A stretch of DNA of 64,000 nucleotides, from contig JAKURY010000004.1 of assembly GCA_022452145.1 (NCBI GenBank), positions 62,001 to 126,000 on the forward strand, read 5' to 3'. Positions within the stretch are counted from its first letter, which is position 1. The number at the start of each line of letters is the position of its first letter. Below are positions 46,224 through 51,701 of this stretch, one piece after another. The notes under the pieces were generated by a model, which saw only the letters and a list, made by a program, of their open reading frames with translations, did no database searches and was not told the origin of the DNA. This DNA comes from Acidimicrobiales bacterium. GTDB lineage: Bacteria > Actinomycetota > Acidimicrobiia > Acidimicrobiales > MedAcidi-G1. The position numbers and the translations under genes are program-made.

Positions 46224-46997
46224 TCAGCCGACTGGCGGGACCAGCCGTCGGTCGTCGCTGAGAAACGTCCGGACACCCAGCAACACCACCACCAGCGCGG
46301 TCACCGCCGCCGTCCCCAGGATGAGGAACAGGATGGCCACCTGGATCAGCGCCGCCTGGAGTGGGTCCACCCCGGCCAGGATCAGGCCGGTCAGGGCCCC
46401 GGGCAGGAACACCACGCCGGCCGACCGGGTGATCTCGATCTGGGGCCGCAGTGCCAGCCGCAGGGCGTCGGAGGTCACGTCGCGCACGGCTCGACCCGGT
46501 CCGAAGCCAAGGGCGAGCATGGCCTCGACCTCGCCGGCCCGGTCCCGGATGCCGTCCACCAGGCGGGTAGCTGCCACCACCACGACCTTCAACGAGTTGC
46601 CGACAACCATGCCGGAGACCGGTACAAGCACCCGTGCCTCCAGCGGAAGAATCCCGAAGGCGAATACGGTGGCCAGCGAGACCGACAGGCCCAGTGCGGC
46701 GCCCCCGGTCGTCATCAGGCCGAGGCCCCGGAGTCGGGGCTCGCGACGACGGGCTGCGTCGCCGGCCATCGGGACCATGGCGACCACCCAGGCCCAGGCC
46801 CAGAGGATCGATGTTCCCTCGTCCAGCAGCAGGGTCAGGGCCCAGCCGGCCAGCACCAGCTGCGCGATGGCGCGGACCGTAGCCACGAGCAGCGCCCGCT
46901 CCAGCCCTAGGTGGCGTACCACCGAGACGCCCGCCGCCACGGCCACCGGGACGAGCGAGGCGACCAGCCCCCACCAGCCGATGTCCATGTCGGTCAC
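46224..46997 (-). CDS. FetB/UPF0014-type ABC transporter permease
   Basis: A 257-residue membrane protein of the FetB (YbbM) family, with six to seven hydrophobic helices and the signature stretches VRAIAQLVLAGW and MVVGNSLKVVVVAATR followed by RDRAGEVEAMLALGFGPG and LPGALTGLILAGVDP. FetAB is a metal exporter-type system in E. coli that affects iron homeostasis. Here no FetA ATPase is beside it, and the nearest ATPase is the divergent FbpC-like gene. The GTG at 46997 was chosen because TACGGT lies 6 nt upstream; ATG at 46988 is the alternative. Confidence 0.85.
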   Translation of the reverse strand: MTDMDIGWWGLVASLVPVAVAAGVSVVRHLGLERALLVATVRAIAQLVLAGWALTLLLDEGTSILWAWAWVVAMVPMAGDAARRREPRLRGLGLMTTGGAALGLSVSLATVFAFGILPLEARVLVPVSGMVVGNSLKVVVVAATRLVDGIRDRAGEVEAMLALGFGPGRAVRDVTSDALRLALRPQIEITRSAGVVFLPGALTGLILAGVDPLQAALIQVAILFLILGTAAVTALVVVLLGVRTFLSDDRRLVPPVG

Positions 46998-47003
46998 CGT
47001 CGC

Positions 47004-47009
47004 ACCGTA
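47004..47009 (-). promoter_or_regulatory. -10 element of the FetB-like gene
   Basis: TACGGT on the minus strand, 6 nt before the GTG at 46997; leaderless start inferred. It lies in the 100-bp divergent region shared with fbpC. Confidence 0.5.
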
Positions 47010-47084
47010 GCCAGCAACCACCGGGCGGTGCATCCACCTCCAGGTGCCCACAACCCCGGCCTTGGGGAGTGCCGCGGCGACCCA

Positions 47085-47109
47085 TATCCTGTTAGGCATG
47101 CTGAACAGG
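47085..47109 (+). promoter_or_regulatory. fbpC promoter with overlapping palindromic operator
   Basis: TATCCT (47085-47090) is 7 nt before the ATG at 47098, a leaderless promoter. A palindrome CCTGTT-N10-AACAGG (47088-47109) with GCATGC in its centre covers the -10, the start site and the first codons, and contains TGTTAGG, the same heptamer found twice before fbpA. A metal-regulated repressor could block initiation here. Confidence 0.55.
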
Positions 47110-48147
47110 CGCACCCATGTGCCCCGGGCGACGGCCGAGGGGCTCGAGGTGTCGGACCTGTCGGTCGCCTACGACGGTCCACCCGTCCTCACTCTTGTGT
47201 CGCTGGAGGTGGCCGCCGGCGAGGTGGTAGCCCTGCTCGGACCCAGCGGGTGTGGCAAGACCACGTTGCTGCGCACCATCGCCGGCCTCGAGCGCCAGCA
47301 GACCGGCACGGTGCGCCTCGGTGACCGGGTGCTCAGTGACGGCACCACGTTCGTGCCACCGGAGAAGCGCCGCATCGGCATGGTCTTCCAGGACGGCGCC
47401 CTGTTCCCCCACCTCGACGTGGGCCAGAACGTGGCCTACGGCCTGCCCCGTGCCGAACGCCGTTCCACACGGGTGGCCGACACCCTGGAGCTGGTCGGGC
47501 TGGCCGGCATGGTCGACCGCATGCCCGGCTCGCTCTCGGGCGGCCAGCAGCAGCGCGTGGCGCTGGCCCGGGCACTGGCTCCACGGCCCGGCGTCCTGCT
47601 CCTGGACGAACCCTTCTCCAGCCTCGACACCTCGCTCCGGGTCCAGGTCAGGAGCGAGATCCACCACCTGCTCCTGGAGTTGGGGGTGACCACGGTGTTC
47701 GTCACGCACGACCAGGAGGAGGCCTTCGTACTGGGCGACCGGGTGGCCGTCCTGAACGACGGACGCCTGGCCCAGGTCGGGACACCTGACGAGCTCTACC
47801 GCCATCCGGTCGACCGCTGGGTGGCGACCTTCGTCGGTGACGCCAACCTGATTCCGGTGGCCAAGGCGATCGGAACGTGTCGCACGGCGGTGGGCGACGT
47901 GCCGGTGGCCGAGGGCGTGGACGGACCAGCCGAGCTGCTCCTGCGCCCCGAGGACATACGGGTGGCCGACGGCGAGGACGGAATCGTCGAGCTGGTCGAG
48001 TACTACGGCCACGATGCGATGGTCCTGGTCCGCCTCCAGGATGGCACCTCTATACGAGTCAGGACCGGGTCCGACCTGGCCCACCAGCGCGGCGACGCGG
48101 TCGGTGTGACATATGTCGGCCCCGGTGCCGTGGCCCTCGGGGTTTGA
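47098..48147 (+). CDS. fbpC: Iron(III)-type ABC transporter ATP-binding protein
   Basis: Cytoplasmic ATPase of an FbpABC-type ferric-iron importer. The 349-residue protein has Walker A GPSGCGKT (48-55), the Q-loop VFQDGALFPH, the signature LSGGQQQR (146-153), Walker B LLLDEP (167-172), the H-loop FVTHDQEE and a C-terminal TOBE-like domain from about residue 260 (IPVAKAIG, LLRPEDIRVAD). ATG at 47098 was chosen because the longer frame starts upstream of the promoter. It is followed by fbpA and fbpB on the same strand; control by a DtxR-family protein is inferred from nearby TGTTAGG sites. Confidence 0.9.
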   Translation: MLNRRTHVPRATAEGLEVSDLSVAYDGPPVLTLVSLEVAAGEVVALLGPSGCGKTTLLRTIAGLERQQTGTVRLGDRVLSDGTTFVPPEKRRIGMVFQDGALFPHLDVGQNVAYGLPRAERRSTRVADTLELVGLAGMVDRMPGSLSGGQQQRVALARALAPRPGVLLLDEPFSSLDTSLRVQVRSEIHHLLLELGVTTVFVTHDQEEAFVLGDRVAVLNDGRLAQVGTPDELYRHPVDRWVATFVGDANLIPVAKAIGTCRTAVGDVPVAEGVDGPAELLLRPEDIRVADGEDGIVELVEYYGHDAMVLVRLQDGTSIRVRTGSDLAHQRGDAVGVTYVGPGAVALGV

Positions 48148-48162
48148 TCGCCGACCTGTAGT

Positions 48163-48200
48163 TGTTAGGTTCCCTTCACGCTCTGTTAGGGCACCCTTAC
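48163..48200 (+). promoter_or_regulatory. Paired DtxR/IdeR-like operator sites before fbpA
   Basis: Two direct copies of TGTTAGG followed by a CCCTT element (48163-48178 and 48184-48199) lie 21 bp apart, two helical turns. TTAGG is the half-site of DtxR/IdeR boxes (TTAGGTTAGGCTAACCTAA), and TTAGGG-CA-CCCTTA in copy 2 is nearly palindromic. The sequence is visible; binding by the DtxR-family protein encoded at 51036 is inferred. Confidence 0.55.
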
Positions 48201-48231: not shown

Positions 48232-49281
48232 ATGAACGAACGCAGCCTCCGACGACTGTCCCAACGGATGGCCGCCACGGCGACGGTCATCCTCCTCACC
48301 CTCGGCCTCGGTGCATCGGCCACGGCCTGTGGAGACGGCGACCCCGAGTCGCTGGTCGTCTACTCCGGCCGCAGCGAGAAGTTGGTCGGTCCGATCCTGG
48401 ATGCCTTCACCGCGGAGACTGACATCCGCCTGAAGGTGCGCTACGGCTCGTCCAACGACCTGGCCCTGCTGCTGGCCGAGGAGGGCGACAAGACACCCGC
48501 AGACGTGTTCCTCTCGCGAAGCCCCGGCCCGGCCGGCTACCTGGACGACCTCGGCATGCTCTCGGTCGTCGCCGACCACGTTCTGGAACGGGTGGCCGAC
48601 GGCGACCGCTCGCCTGACGGCACCTGGGTCGGCTTCGCCGGCCGGGGCCGGGTCCTCGTCTACAACATCGACAAGGTGGACGCCGCCGACCTACCCGACT
48701 CGGTATTCGACCTGACCAGTTCCGAGTACGCCGGCCGGGTGGCCGTACCGGGCTCCAACTCCTCGTTCCAGGACTGGTTCACCTTGTTCCGGCTGCGCAA
48801 CGGCGACGACGTGGCGATCGAATGGCTGGACGCCATGGTGGCCAACGGCTCCCGCTTCTACCCGAAGAACGGCGCCATCGTGGAAGCCGTGGGCCGCAAC
48901 GAGATCCAGTTCGGCCTCGTGAACCACTACTACAACTTCCAGAAGGTGGCGGCCAACGGTGGCTCCCAGCGCTCGGCCAACCACGGCTTCGCCCCGCGCG
49001 ACGACGGCGGCCTCATGATCATCGCAACGGCGGCGGTGCTCAGCCAGAGCGACGAGAAGGACGCCGCCAACCGACTCCTGGCCCACCTCCTGAGCGATGA
49101 GCAACAGGCCTACCTGACCAACAAGGTGTACGAGTACCCGCTTGCCCTCGGCGTCGCCCCGGCCGACGTCCTCCCGCCAGCTCCGGCCGACCGGGTGGGT
49201 GCCGTGGACATCGACGACGTGGCCGCCGAATTCACCCGGACCATCGAGATCATCGAGGCCAGCGGCATCCTCGACCAATGA
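48232..49281 (+). CDS. fbpA: Ferric-iron ABC transporter substrate-binding lipoprotein
   Basis: Extracytoplasmic ferric-iron-binding protein. The 349-residue precursor has a signal peptide ending in SATAC, a lipobox with Cys33 as the lipid-bearing residue, so it should be a membrane-tethered lipoprotein. The mature domain begins VVYSGRSEKLVGPILDAFTAETDI and carries the tandem tyrosines Tyr233/Tyr234 in NHYYNF, the iron ligands of FbpA-type proteins. The ATG at 48232 lacks a Shine-Dalgarno; a six-codon frame (48215-48235) ends with a TGA that overlaps this ATG and may couple translation. Operator-like repeats lie just upstream. Confidence 0.9.
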   Translation: MNERSLRRLSQRMAATATVILLTLGLGASATACGDGDPESLVVYSGRSEKLVGPILDAFTAETDIRLKVRYGSSNDLALLLAEEGDKTPADVFLSRSPGPAGYLDDLGMLSVVADHVLERVADGDRSPDGTWVGFAGRGRVLVYNIDKVDAADLPDSVFDLTSSEYAGRVAVPGSNSSFQDWFTLFRLRNGDDVAIEWLDAMVANGSRFYPKNGAIVEAVGRNEIQFGLVNHYYNFQKVAANGGSQRSANHGFAPRDDGGLMIIATAAVLSQSDEKDAANRLLAHLLSDEQQAYLTNKVYEYPLALGVAPADVLPPAPADRVGAVDIDDVAAEFTRTIEIIEASGILDQ

Positions 49282-49318: not shown

Positions 49319-50992
49319 ATGGCGGTCCGGCCCGTCGTGACGATGGCCGCCACCGATGCTCCACGGACGGGGGCCGTCCAACGCCGGGTGGGCGTACGGC
49401 GGCCCCCCAGAACCCTCACCGCGGCGGCACTCGCGGTCGCTGCGCTCTTCGCCCTACCCGGCGGCTACGTGGTCTGGCGGGTCATCGGCGGCTCGGCCTC
49501 GCCGATCGCCCTGCTGGCCTCGCGCCGGACCCTCGAACCCCTGTGGCGCACCATCCAGCTGGCCGTCCTCGTCTCGGCCTCCTCCGCGGTGCTCGGCACC
49601 GGCCTGGCGTGGCTGACCACCCGGACCGACATTCCGCTGCGTCGCTTCTGGCGCATCGTCGTACCGCTCCCGCTCGTCTACCCGAGCTTCGTGGGGGCAG
49701 CCGCGTTCATCTCCGGGCTGACACCGGGTGGGATCGTCGACGACCTGGCCGGCGGGCTGGGGATCGACCTCTCCATCCGACTCCACGGGCTGACCGGGGC
49801 GTGGCTGGTGCTCACCCTGTTCACCTACCCGTACGTGTACCTCCCGGTTGCCGCACGCCTGACCGCGCTGCGGGGAGCCTTCGAGGAGAACGCACGCCTG
49901 CTCGGCGACGGACCGGGGCGGGTCTTCGCCCGTGTCGTGCTCCCCCAGGTCTGGTCATCGATCGCCGCCGGATCGCTGCTGGTGTTCCTGTACACGGTCT
50001 CGGACTTCGGTGCCGTGCACCTCATGCGGTTCGAGACGCTCACCCAGACGATCTTCCGGACCCGGCTGTTCGACCGGGACCGGTCGTTCGCCTTGGCCCT
50101 CGTGCTCCTGGTTCTGGCGCTGCTGGTGGTGGCCGCCGAACGCACCGTGGCCCGGGCCGGCCAACGACGGGGAGCGCGGCTGGACGTGGTGGGCGAACGA
50201 CGGGCCCTCGTCGTGCCGCTGAGAGGCTGGACCGCGCCGGCCCTGGCCGCCACGACCTCGGTGGTCGGTGTGGCCCTCGTCGCACCGGCGGTGTCGCTGG
50301 CCGACTGGGGACTGTTCGGCCTCCTGCGGGCCCGTCGCGACGGCGCTCCGCTCCGCCTCGATTGGAACGACGTCCTGGGCCCCACCTGGAACACGGTCTG
50401 GATCAGCGTGGTGACCGCCATGGTGGCGGTCGCCGTGGTGCTCCCCGTGGCCTACCTGCTGGCCCGTCACCGCAGCAGGCTGGGCGAGGTGGTCAACGCC
50501 GTCGTGGTGGCCGGGTTCGCCATCCCGGGCCTGGTGGTTGCGCTCTCGCTGGTCTTCTGGACGATGCACGCCTCGCCGTTCGAGTTCCTCATCGGCTCCA
50601 TGCCCGTGCTGGTCTTCGCCTACGTCGTCCACTTCGGGGCCCAGGCCATGCGTACCGCGCAGGTTGCCGTCGGAACCGTTCCGCTACGCATGGACGACGC
50701 CGCCCGCCTCCTGGGCGCCGGCCGCCTTCGACGCCTGACCACCGTGGACCTCCCGCTGATGGCTCCCGGCCTGGCTGCCGGAGCGGGCCTCGTGATGCTC
50801 TCCACCATGAAGGAGCTGCCGGCCACCCTGCTGGCCTCACCCATAGGGTTCCAGACGCTGGCCACCCAGATCTGGAACACCTACGAGGCTCTGTTCCTAC
50901 CGGAGACTGCGATCCTCGCCCTGGTGCTGCTGGGCATCAGTGCGGCCCTCACCTGGCTGCTGGTGGTGCGCCACAGCGAGCACCTGCGCTGA
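49319..50992 (+). CDS. fbpB: Ferric-iron ABC transporter permease, fused two-domain
   Basis: Inner-membrane permease of the FbpABC system, about 557 residues with two binding-protein-dependent transport modules in one chain (about twelve helices), as in FbpB. Each module has its ATPase-docking EAA loop: ENARLLGDGPGRVFARVVLPQV in the first half and DAARLLGAGRLRRLTTVDLP in the second. The ATG at 49319 was chosen as the first start after fbpA that does not overlap it; ATG at 49343 is possible. It lies 37 nt after fbpA and is convergent with the DtxR-family gene. Confidence 0.9.
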   Translation: MAVRPVVTMAATDAPRTGAVQRRVGVRRPPRTLTAAALAVAALFALPGGYVVWRVIGGSASPIALLASRRTLEPLWRTIQLAVLVSASSAVLGTGLAWLTTRTDIPLRRFWRIVVPLPLVYPSFVGAAAFISGLTPGGIVDDLAGGLGIDLSIRLHGLTGAWLVLTLFTYPYVYLPVAARLTALRGAFEENARLLGDGPGRVFARVVLPQVWSSIAAGSLLVFLYTVSDFGAVHLMRFETLTQTIFRTRLFDRDRSFALALVLLVLALLVVAAERTVARAGQRRGARLDVVGERRALVVPLRGWTAPALAATTSVVGVALVAPAVSLADWGLFGLLRARRDGAPLRLDWNDVLGPTWNTVWISVVTAMVAVAVVLPVAYLLARHRSRLGEVVNAVVVAGFAIPGLVVALSLVFWTMHASPFEFLIGSMPVLVFAYVVHFGAQAMRTAQVAVGTVPLRMDDAARLLGAGRLRRLTTVDLPLMAPGLAAGAGLVMLSTMKELPATLLASPIGFQTLATQIWNTYEALFLPETAILALVLLGISAALTWLLVVRHSEHLR

Positions 50993-51035: not shown

Positions 51036-51701
51036 TCAGCGTGTGGTGACGAGGATCCGGTCGGCCACGTACTGCTCCACCTCAACCCGGCAACCGCCGA
51101 TCTCGACGGTTACGGCGCCATCGGCCGAAGCGGTGACTGCACCCTGCTCGCCCGGCATGAGGCTGGAGACCTCCAGGAACTCCAGCAGCCCCTCGGCGAA
51201 CTCCAACTCCTCGGGGATCCGACTCACCGTGAACGACTCCCCCACCCCGATGTCGGCCAACTGTCGGGTGTCGGGCTCACGGTAGGAGCTCCCGGGAATC
51301 GGGTTGCCGTGCGGGCAGGTGGTCGGCTGGCCCAGCAGGCGATCCAGCGCCGACTCCACGGCAGGCGAGATGACGTGCTCCCACTTGCCGGCCTCGTGGT
51401 GCGCCTCGGTCCAGGAGAGGCCCAGGACGTCGGTCAGGAACCGCTCGGCCAGCCGATGTCGTCGCACCACCGAGGTGGCCAACTCCCGCCCATCCTCGGT
51501 GAGGAGGATCACATGGTCGTCGCTGGTGACCAGGCCCTCCTTCTCGAGGCGCTTGACCATCTCGGACACCGCCGGTCGGCTCACCTCGAGGCGCTCGGCG
51601 ATCCGGGCCTGTATGACGTCCAGGTCGTCCTCGGCGAGCTCGAAGATCGTCTCGCAGTACTCCTCGAAGGCCGGGTGGTACTCCGGCGTCTCGTACGGCA
51701 C
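51036..51701 (-). CDS. DtxR-family metal-dependent transcriptional regulator
   Basis: A 221-residue repressor with the DtxR order: winged helix (residues ~12-70, ARIAERLEVSRPAVSEMVKRLE), dimerisation/metal domain (~75-135) and a C-terminal FeoA-like SH3 domain. The ancillary-site ligands are kept (His82, Glu86, His101). The primary site is altered against DtxR/IdeR: the Met10 equivalent is Glu14, and the Cys102 equivalent is Gly105 in EAGKWEH, while Glu108 and His109 remain. It is thus neither a standard iron form nor the MntR form (Asp/Glu). Its gene is convergent with fbpB, and it probably controls the fbp genes. GTG start with TAGACT 6 nt upstream. Confidence 0.9.
   Translation of the reverse strand: MPYETPEYHPAFEEYCETIFELAEDDLDVIQARIAERLEVSRPAVSEMVKRLEKEGLVTSDDHVILLTEDGRELATSVVRRHRLAERFLTDVLGLSWTEAHHEAGKWEHVISPAVESALDRLLGQPTTCPHGNPIPGSSYREPDTRQLADIGVGESFTVSRIPEELEFAEGLLEFLEVSSLMPGEQGAVTASADGAVTVEIGGCRVEVEQYVADRILVTTR

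Follow-up and report, generated by a model that had tools for sequence, protein, structure and literature searches.

Regulator gene and neighbouring transporter genes

The window analysed here, a 64,000-nucleotide stretch of an Acidimicrobiales genome, contains a DtxR-family regulator gene beside a set of ABC transporter genes (Table 1). The protein belongs to the DtxR/MntR superfamily, with scores above the cut-offs for both PF01325 (50.8 bits) and PF02742 (109.4 bits). Its scores were below the cut-offs of the NCBIfam equivalogs for IdeR/DtxR (NF053665, 170.9 vs 290 bits) and MntR (NF047407, 113.6 vs 350 bits; NF008273, 74.1 vs 153 bits; NF003025, 46.9 vs 138 bits).

Table 1. Features of the regulator locus (window coordinates; residue numbers refer to the regulator).
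Feature	Position	Strand	Basis or remark
DtxR-family regulator gene, 221 aa, GTG start	51036-51701	-	ORF and Pfam
Winged HTH, Fe_dep_repress	residues 12-59		Pfam
Dimerisation/metal domain, Fe_dep_repr_C	residues 68-136		Pfam
SH3/FeoA domain	residues 147-219		Pfam
Codons 14-16: Glu14 (DtxR Met10 position), Tyr15, Cys16	51654..51662	-	Alignment
Codon 105: Gly105 (DtxR Cys102 position)	51387..51389	-	Alignment
Codons 108-109: Glu108, His109 (DtxR Glu105, His106), retained primary-site ligands	51375..51380	-	Alignment
Codons 129-131, CPH: Cys129 and His131	51309..51317	-	Matched by motif to ScaR Cys123/His125 (secondary metal site)
Codons 164-167, EELE: Glu164 and Glu167, SH3 ancillary-ligand positions (DtxR Glu170/Gln173)	51201..51212	-	Alignment
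Operator-like box GTTAGGCATGCTGAAC, 2 mismatches	47091..47106		Between ABC ATPase and divergent FetB-like gene
Operator-like box GTTAGGTTCCCTTCAC, 2 mismatches	48164..48179		Upstream of solute-binding protein gene
Operator-like box GTTAGGGCACCCTTAC, 1 mismatch	48185..48200		21 bp from the 48164-48179 box
FetB-like permease	46224-47114	-	TIGR00245, E 7.6e-33 but below cut-off; divergent from ABC ATPase
TOBE-domain ATPase of the ABC transporter, probably starting at about 47098	47044..48147	+	Pfam ABC_tran, TOBE_2
Solute-binding protein, AfuA/FbpA/FutA-like, NHYYN motif; probable target	48232..49281	+	Pfam SBP_bac_6; motif read directly
Fused two-unit ABC permease; probable target; convergent with regulator gene	49319..50992	+	Pfam BPD_transp_1, two stretches

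The NHYYN motif of the solute-binding protein includes a tyrosine pair like that with an iron-binding role in Fe(III)-binding proteins, and iron is its presumed substrate. The best NCBIfam matches of the binding protein are 2-aminoethylphosphonate transporters, below cut-off, and the ABC transporter could carry a ligand other than iron. Close relatives (L033-L035, L037, L038 and L174) keep the FetB-like gene beside the operon, and the box at 47091 sits in the upstream region that this gene has in common with the ATPase gene. Of 80 loci of the regulator clade in public genomes, roughly 25-30 have an SBP_bac_6-group transporter next to the regulator; its orientation varies, and more than one transporter lineage is represented.

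Metal-binding residues

Residues were equated by aligning the regulator to the IdeRs of S. erythraea and M. tuberculosis. The sequence-only reading had placed Glu14 and Gly105 at the positions of DtxR Met10 and Cys102, and the alignment to both IdeRs agrees. It had also described the other primary-site ligands, Glu108 and His109, and the ancillary residues His82, Glu86 and His101 (DtxR His79, Glu83 and His98) as intact, which the alignment and a comparison of 132 clade sequences confirmed. The SH3 ligands are present as well, with DtxR Glu170 kept as Glu164 and Gln173 conservatively replaced by Glu167. The sulfur ligands of IdeR/DtxR are missing, and so are Asp8 and Glu99, which form the binuclear Mn site of MntR. 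The two variable positions are occupied by Asp and Glu in all of the crystallised Mn- or Mn/Fe-type proteins SloR, ScaR, MtsR, 5zr4 and DR2539. The primary site, as had been claimed, matches neither the Met/Cys site of the iron type nor the Asp/Glu site of the Mn type, and this is a trait of the whole clade.

Conservation in Acidimicrobiales

A genome search found matches to the regulator in 177 of 198 genomes of the order Acidimicrobiales. By our own count from the match table, about 104 of these 177 genomes have a best match from the same clade (~60-76% identity); the remaining genomes have a second regulator type, mostly at ~45-52% identity. A scan of public genomes yielded the 80 clade loci mentioned above, labelled mostly Acidimicrobiia or Actinomycetota, with search patterns that included FEEYCETI and HHEAGKWE and are thus biased towards such sequences; loci from the genome search, which did not use these patterns, agree with the scan loci on the residues. 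In the match of the single-contig genome G006 (C1:3563901-3564551), there is one TGA, possibly the gene's own terminal stop. A literature search on Acidimicrobi-, DtxR and iron returned no description of the regulator by title or abstract.

All 111 distinct homologues in the first order-wide set have Glu14 and Gly105, and Cys16, His82, Glu86, His101, Glu108, His109, Cys129, His131, Glu164 and Glu167 were also invariant among them. A one-off or degenerate gene was rejected on the basis of these order-wide homologues with the same residues. In the full clade set, extended with more distant members to 132 distinct sequences, 122 have Glu14/Gly105, one has Asp/Gly and nine are eroded, all nine belonging to family f41. 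Cys16 is present in 127 of the 132; family f17 has Thr, Ala or Ser instead. The ancillary ligands, including SH3 Glu164 and Glu167, together with Cys129 and His131 are invariant throughout (132/132).

Family f41 is represented by two or three copies in each of three genomes (G040, G152 and G178). Its members (L215-L223) have Gln or His at position 14 and Ala, Glu, Asn or Ser at 105, and have lost Glu108, His109 or both; despite this decayed primary site, the ancillary set and the CPH residues are intact. No operator box was found near the f41 copies. The neighbours of one copy, L222, include a ferritin-like gene and one for an ABC permease.

Phylogeny and predicted structure

In a maximum-likelihood tree, the regulator clade (support 100/99) is separate from the Met/Cys IdeR clade, and its nearest neighbours are Acidimicrobiia proteins of family f63 with Ala or Glu at position 105. 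The IdeR clade groups with the second Acidimicrobiales type (support 98/85), which mostly has Glu14 and Leu16 with Gly or Cys at 105. Gly105 therefore occurs in two separate clades. Across the sequences compared, Met14 was always paired with Cys105 (18/18), and every sequence with Gly105 had Glu, Asp or Gln at position 14. For DtxR and SirR, the residue conclusions are based on matched database chains and the IdeR alignment.

The AlphaFold (AF2) model of the regulator (pLDDT 94) has IdeR 7b1v as its best fold match (Z 25.5, rmsd 2.6 over 210 residues). The first two domains superpose on 7b1y_A with an rmsd of 1.0 A at 55% identity. The predicted geometry of the Glu14/Gly105 site is based on the alignment and on the fold match.

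Comparison with characterized regulators

The regulator resembles IdeR/DtxR (7b1v, 1fx7 and 1c0w) in its three-domain architecture, fold, conserved primary and ancillary ligands, TTAGGnnnnCCTAA operator and predicted iron-uptake targets. It differs from them in Glu14/Gly105 and Glu167 and in forming its own clade outside the IdeR branch. Members of the IdeR clade have Ser, Asp or Cys together with Tyr, Phe or His in place of Cys129 and His131. The CPHG loop of the regulator is shared by SloR, ScaR, MtsR and SirR. The MntRs of B. subtilis and B. halodurans, which have no SH3 domain, share an acidic residue at the Asp8 position, Glu at the Glu11 position and the equivalents of His82, Glu108 and His109; unlike them, the regulator has Gly for the bridging Glu99 and possesses the SH3 domain and ancillary site. 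Most Mn or Mn/Fe regulators (SloR, ScaR, MtsR, SirR, 5zr4 and TroR) resemble it in having a carboxylate at the Met10 position, but the two variable positions of this group hold Asp (Asn in TroR) and Glu rather than Glu and Gly. A mixed primary site fitting neither type is also known from P. gingivalis PgMntR, which has Asp19 and Cys108 instead and binds a Mn transporter promoter, not an iron transporter promoter (PMC4805248). The sister Acidimicrobiales regulators can likewise have Gly105, and two of them have the same box beside the regulator gene (G080 and G007), but they carry Leu16 and fall in the clade that groups with IdeR.

Operator boxes and predicted regulon

Boxes were scored by mismatches to GTTAGGnnnnCCTAAC. 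The sites quoted at 48163-48200 in the sequence-only reading exist and have two and one mismatches; the box at 47091 was absent from it. The source genome (2.07 Mb) has 22 sites with at most two mismatches, and the box at 48185 is the sole site with at most one; two of the 21 two-mismatch sites, at 48164 and 47091, lie within 1.1 kb of it. The clade box equals the 14-bp redefined IdeR consensus TTAGGNNNNCCTAA (PMC8464063). No box lies upstream of the regulator gene itself in the source genome, and autoregulation was rejected there for this reason; such a box is present in L035-L038, G016 and G185.

Exact GTTAGGNNNNCCTAAC occurs 22 times in 64 regulator-bearing genomes, compared with six occurrences of a reversed control pattern, a small control count. 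By our own assignment, confirmed with Pfam for a subset, 15 of the 22 exact boxes stand directly before iron genes: nine AfuA-type binding proteins, two FTR1/EfeU permeases, three FecB-type Peripla_BP_2 proteins and one divergent siderophore-interacting pair. One further box precedes a small ORF, after which comes a Peripla_BP_2 gene, and the six without a gene assignment are about the number that the reversed control predicts. Near the regulator gene, 14 of 18 binding-protein promoters have a box with at most two mismatches (each shuffle p <= 0.01), although the pattern was derived from some of these promoters and the count is circular there, whereas the FTR1, FecB and siderophore-interacting protein targets are independent. 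By comparison, the same threshold gave boxes upstream of 2 of 33 ATPase genes and 4 of 78 regulator genes. In two genomes (L175 and L273), the regulator gene and an iron gene flank the box. In silico, TTAGGnnnnCCTAA operators are thus found before iron-uptake genes, and a TTAGG box alone does not name the metal.

At L272 (G002:C1:1814169), a perfect box separates two divergent siderophore-interacting protein genes, one of them fused to DUF2470. Two ORFs in different genomes (L267:4441-4983 and L168:836-1480, both on the minus strand) have no Pfam match, start right after a perfect GTTAGGnnnnCCTAAC box and have only a 14-residue similarity in common; they are possible iron-regulated proteins of unknown kind, or their boxes arose by chance. 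The only Fur-family protein found in the source genome is encoded on contig C10 (L262:3968-4447, minus strand).

Metal specificity and mechanism

The suggestion, made from the sequence alone, that the sensed metal may differ from iron was not supported by the predicted regulon, which consists of iron-acquisition genes, or by iron-responsive relatives. Neither Nramp (PF01566) nor ZnuA-type (PF01297) genes had a match in the source genome, which is 95% complete, so that it offers none of the usual targets of a Mn regulator. Nramp was not found in 31 of 37 regulator-bearing genomes, and no box was found at the Nramp loci of relatives; control of Nramp or Mn-ABC importers, as expected of MntR, is therefore seen neither in the source genome nor at those loci. 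The combination of iron-gene targets and missing Mn importers makes iron the likely signal. Changed ligands are no proof of another metal, because T. denticola TroR (Asn/Glu), SirR and MtsR, none of which has the Met10/Cys102 pair, respond to both Fe and Mn, and DtxR(M10D/C102E) is also Fe-responsive when Fe is high (PMC2628430). Met10/Cys102 as a marker of iron sensors probably fails in the regulator clade.

From the sequence, its conservation and the association of operators with targets, we infer repression, Fe(II) as the effector and its coordination: the regulator is probably the IdeR-like Fe(II)-dependent repressor that governs iron uptake in this Acidimicrobiales lineage, with an all N/O primary site. 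The presence of a Fur-family protein in the source genome counts against this reading. Mn(II), or Mn together with Fe, as the signal is improbable. Glu14 and Glu17 resemble Asp8 and Glu11 among the MntR metal ligands (PMC6860424), with Glu17 at the BsMntR Glu11 position in 108 of 111 proteins, and Mn-type relatives are likewise acidic at the first variable position; however, with Gly for the bridging Glu99 the binuclear site cannot form as in MntR, and the targets and the transporter inventory described above point to iron.

It is possible, if unlikely, that the primary site is weak or vestigial in this clade and that His82, Glu86, His101, Glu164 and Glu167, with Cys129 and His131, do most of the iron sensing. 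These seven residues are more constant than the primary site, and in f41, one copy of which adjoins the ferritin-like gene, they outlast it. In IdeR, Fe binds more tightly to the ancillary site than to the primary site (about 0.3-0.5 uM vs 7-9 uM; PMC10317159), and three residues of the ScaR secondary site Glu80/Cys123/His125/Asp160 (PMC4805248), namely Glu80, Cys123 and His125, appear by motif alignment to match Glu86, Cys129 and His131. However, Glu14, Glu108 and His109 are practically invariant outside f41, and the primary site is therefore under selection. Mutations in the primary site of IdeR are also more harmful than those in the ancillary site (PMC10317159), and the f41 copies, having no nearby box, may serve another role. 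A more tentative extension, which we regard as rather unlikely, is that the clade as a whole has shifted iron sensing to the SH3 ancillary site and Cys129/His131, with the sulfur ligands lost first and the primary site dismantled in one lineage; if true, the ranking of primary and ancillary sites would be reversed in nature. Cys16, found in nearly all clade sequences and absent from the sister and IdeR clades, might be a replacement thiolate shifted from position 105 to helix 1. This is very improbable: Cys16 lies two residues on from Glu14 in the same helix (H10-24) and so points to another side than Glu14, Leu16 is found in sister proteins that have Gly105, and family f17 has Thr, Ala or Ser while Glu14/Gly105 is unchanged. 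Cys16 was accordingly rejected as an essential ligand. Least credible is a loss of metal sensing that left a constitutive or otherwise controlled repressor; both sulfur ligands are gone and the f41 primary site decays, but all other ligands are invariant over the order-wide clade and would hardly have been retained if the protein did not bind metal.

For the favoured Fe(II)-dependent repressor, we propose the following mechanism. When Fe(II) is plentiful, it would enter the ancillary site (His82, Glu86, His101, Glu164 and Glu167) and then a primary site formed by Glu14, the backbone carbonyl of Gly105, Glu108, His109 and water. Glu14 would take the place of Met10, and Gly105 has only its backbone carbonyl to offer. 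Cys102 already contributes its backbone carbonyl as a metal ligand in IdeR, and sulfur ligands are considered to make such a site more selective for Fe (PMC10317159). Without a sulfur-based iron preference, selectivity would depend on which metals the cell has available and on the SH3 ancillary site, which is fully kept, possibly also on Cys129/His131. With Fe(II) bound, the protein would dimerise, close its DNA-binding domains onto TTAGGnnnnCCTAA operators and switch Fe(III) uptake off; at low iron, it would be released. Two helical turns separate the two boxes ahead of the binding-protein gene, a spacing that would suit two dimers on one face. Most substitutions of Cys102 inactivate DtxR, and Gly at this position therefore needs a compensation that is only presumed here.

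Implications

Met10/Cys102 vs Asp8/Glu99 are in use for predicting iron or manganese sensing in the DtxR family. Iron uptake throughout the Acidimicrobiales, an order of mostly uncultured bacteria, appears to be run by a regulator that fits neither residue rule and has no side chain at position 102, a caution against naming the metal from two residues alone. The natural series of Glu/Gly, Glu/Cys, Met/Cys, Asp/Glu and eroded copies offers a test of which site sets the choice of metal.
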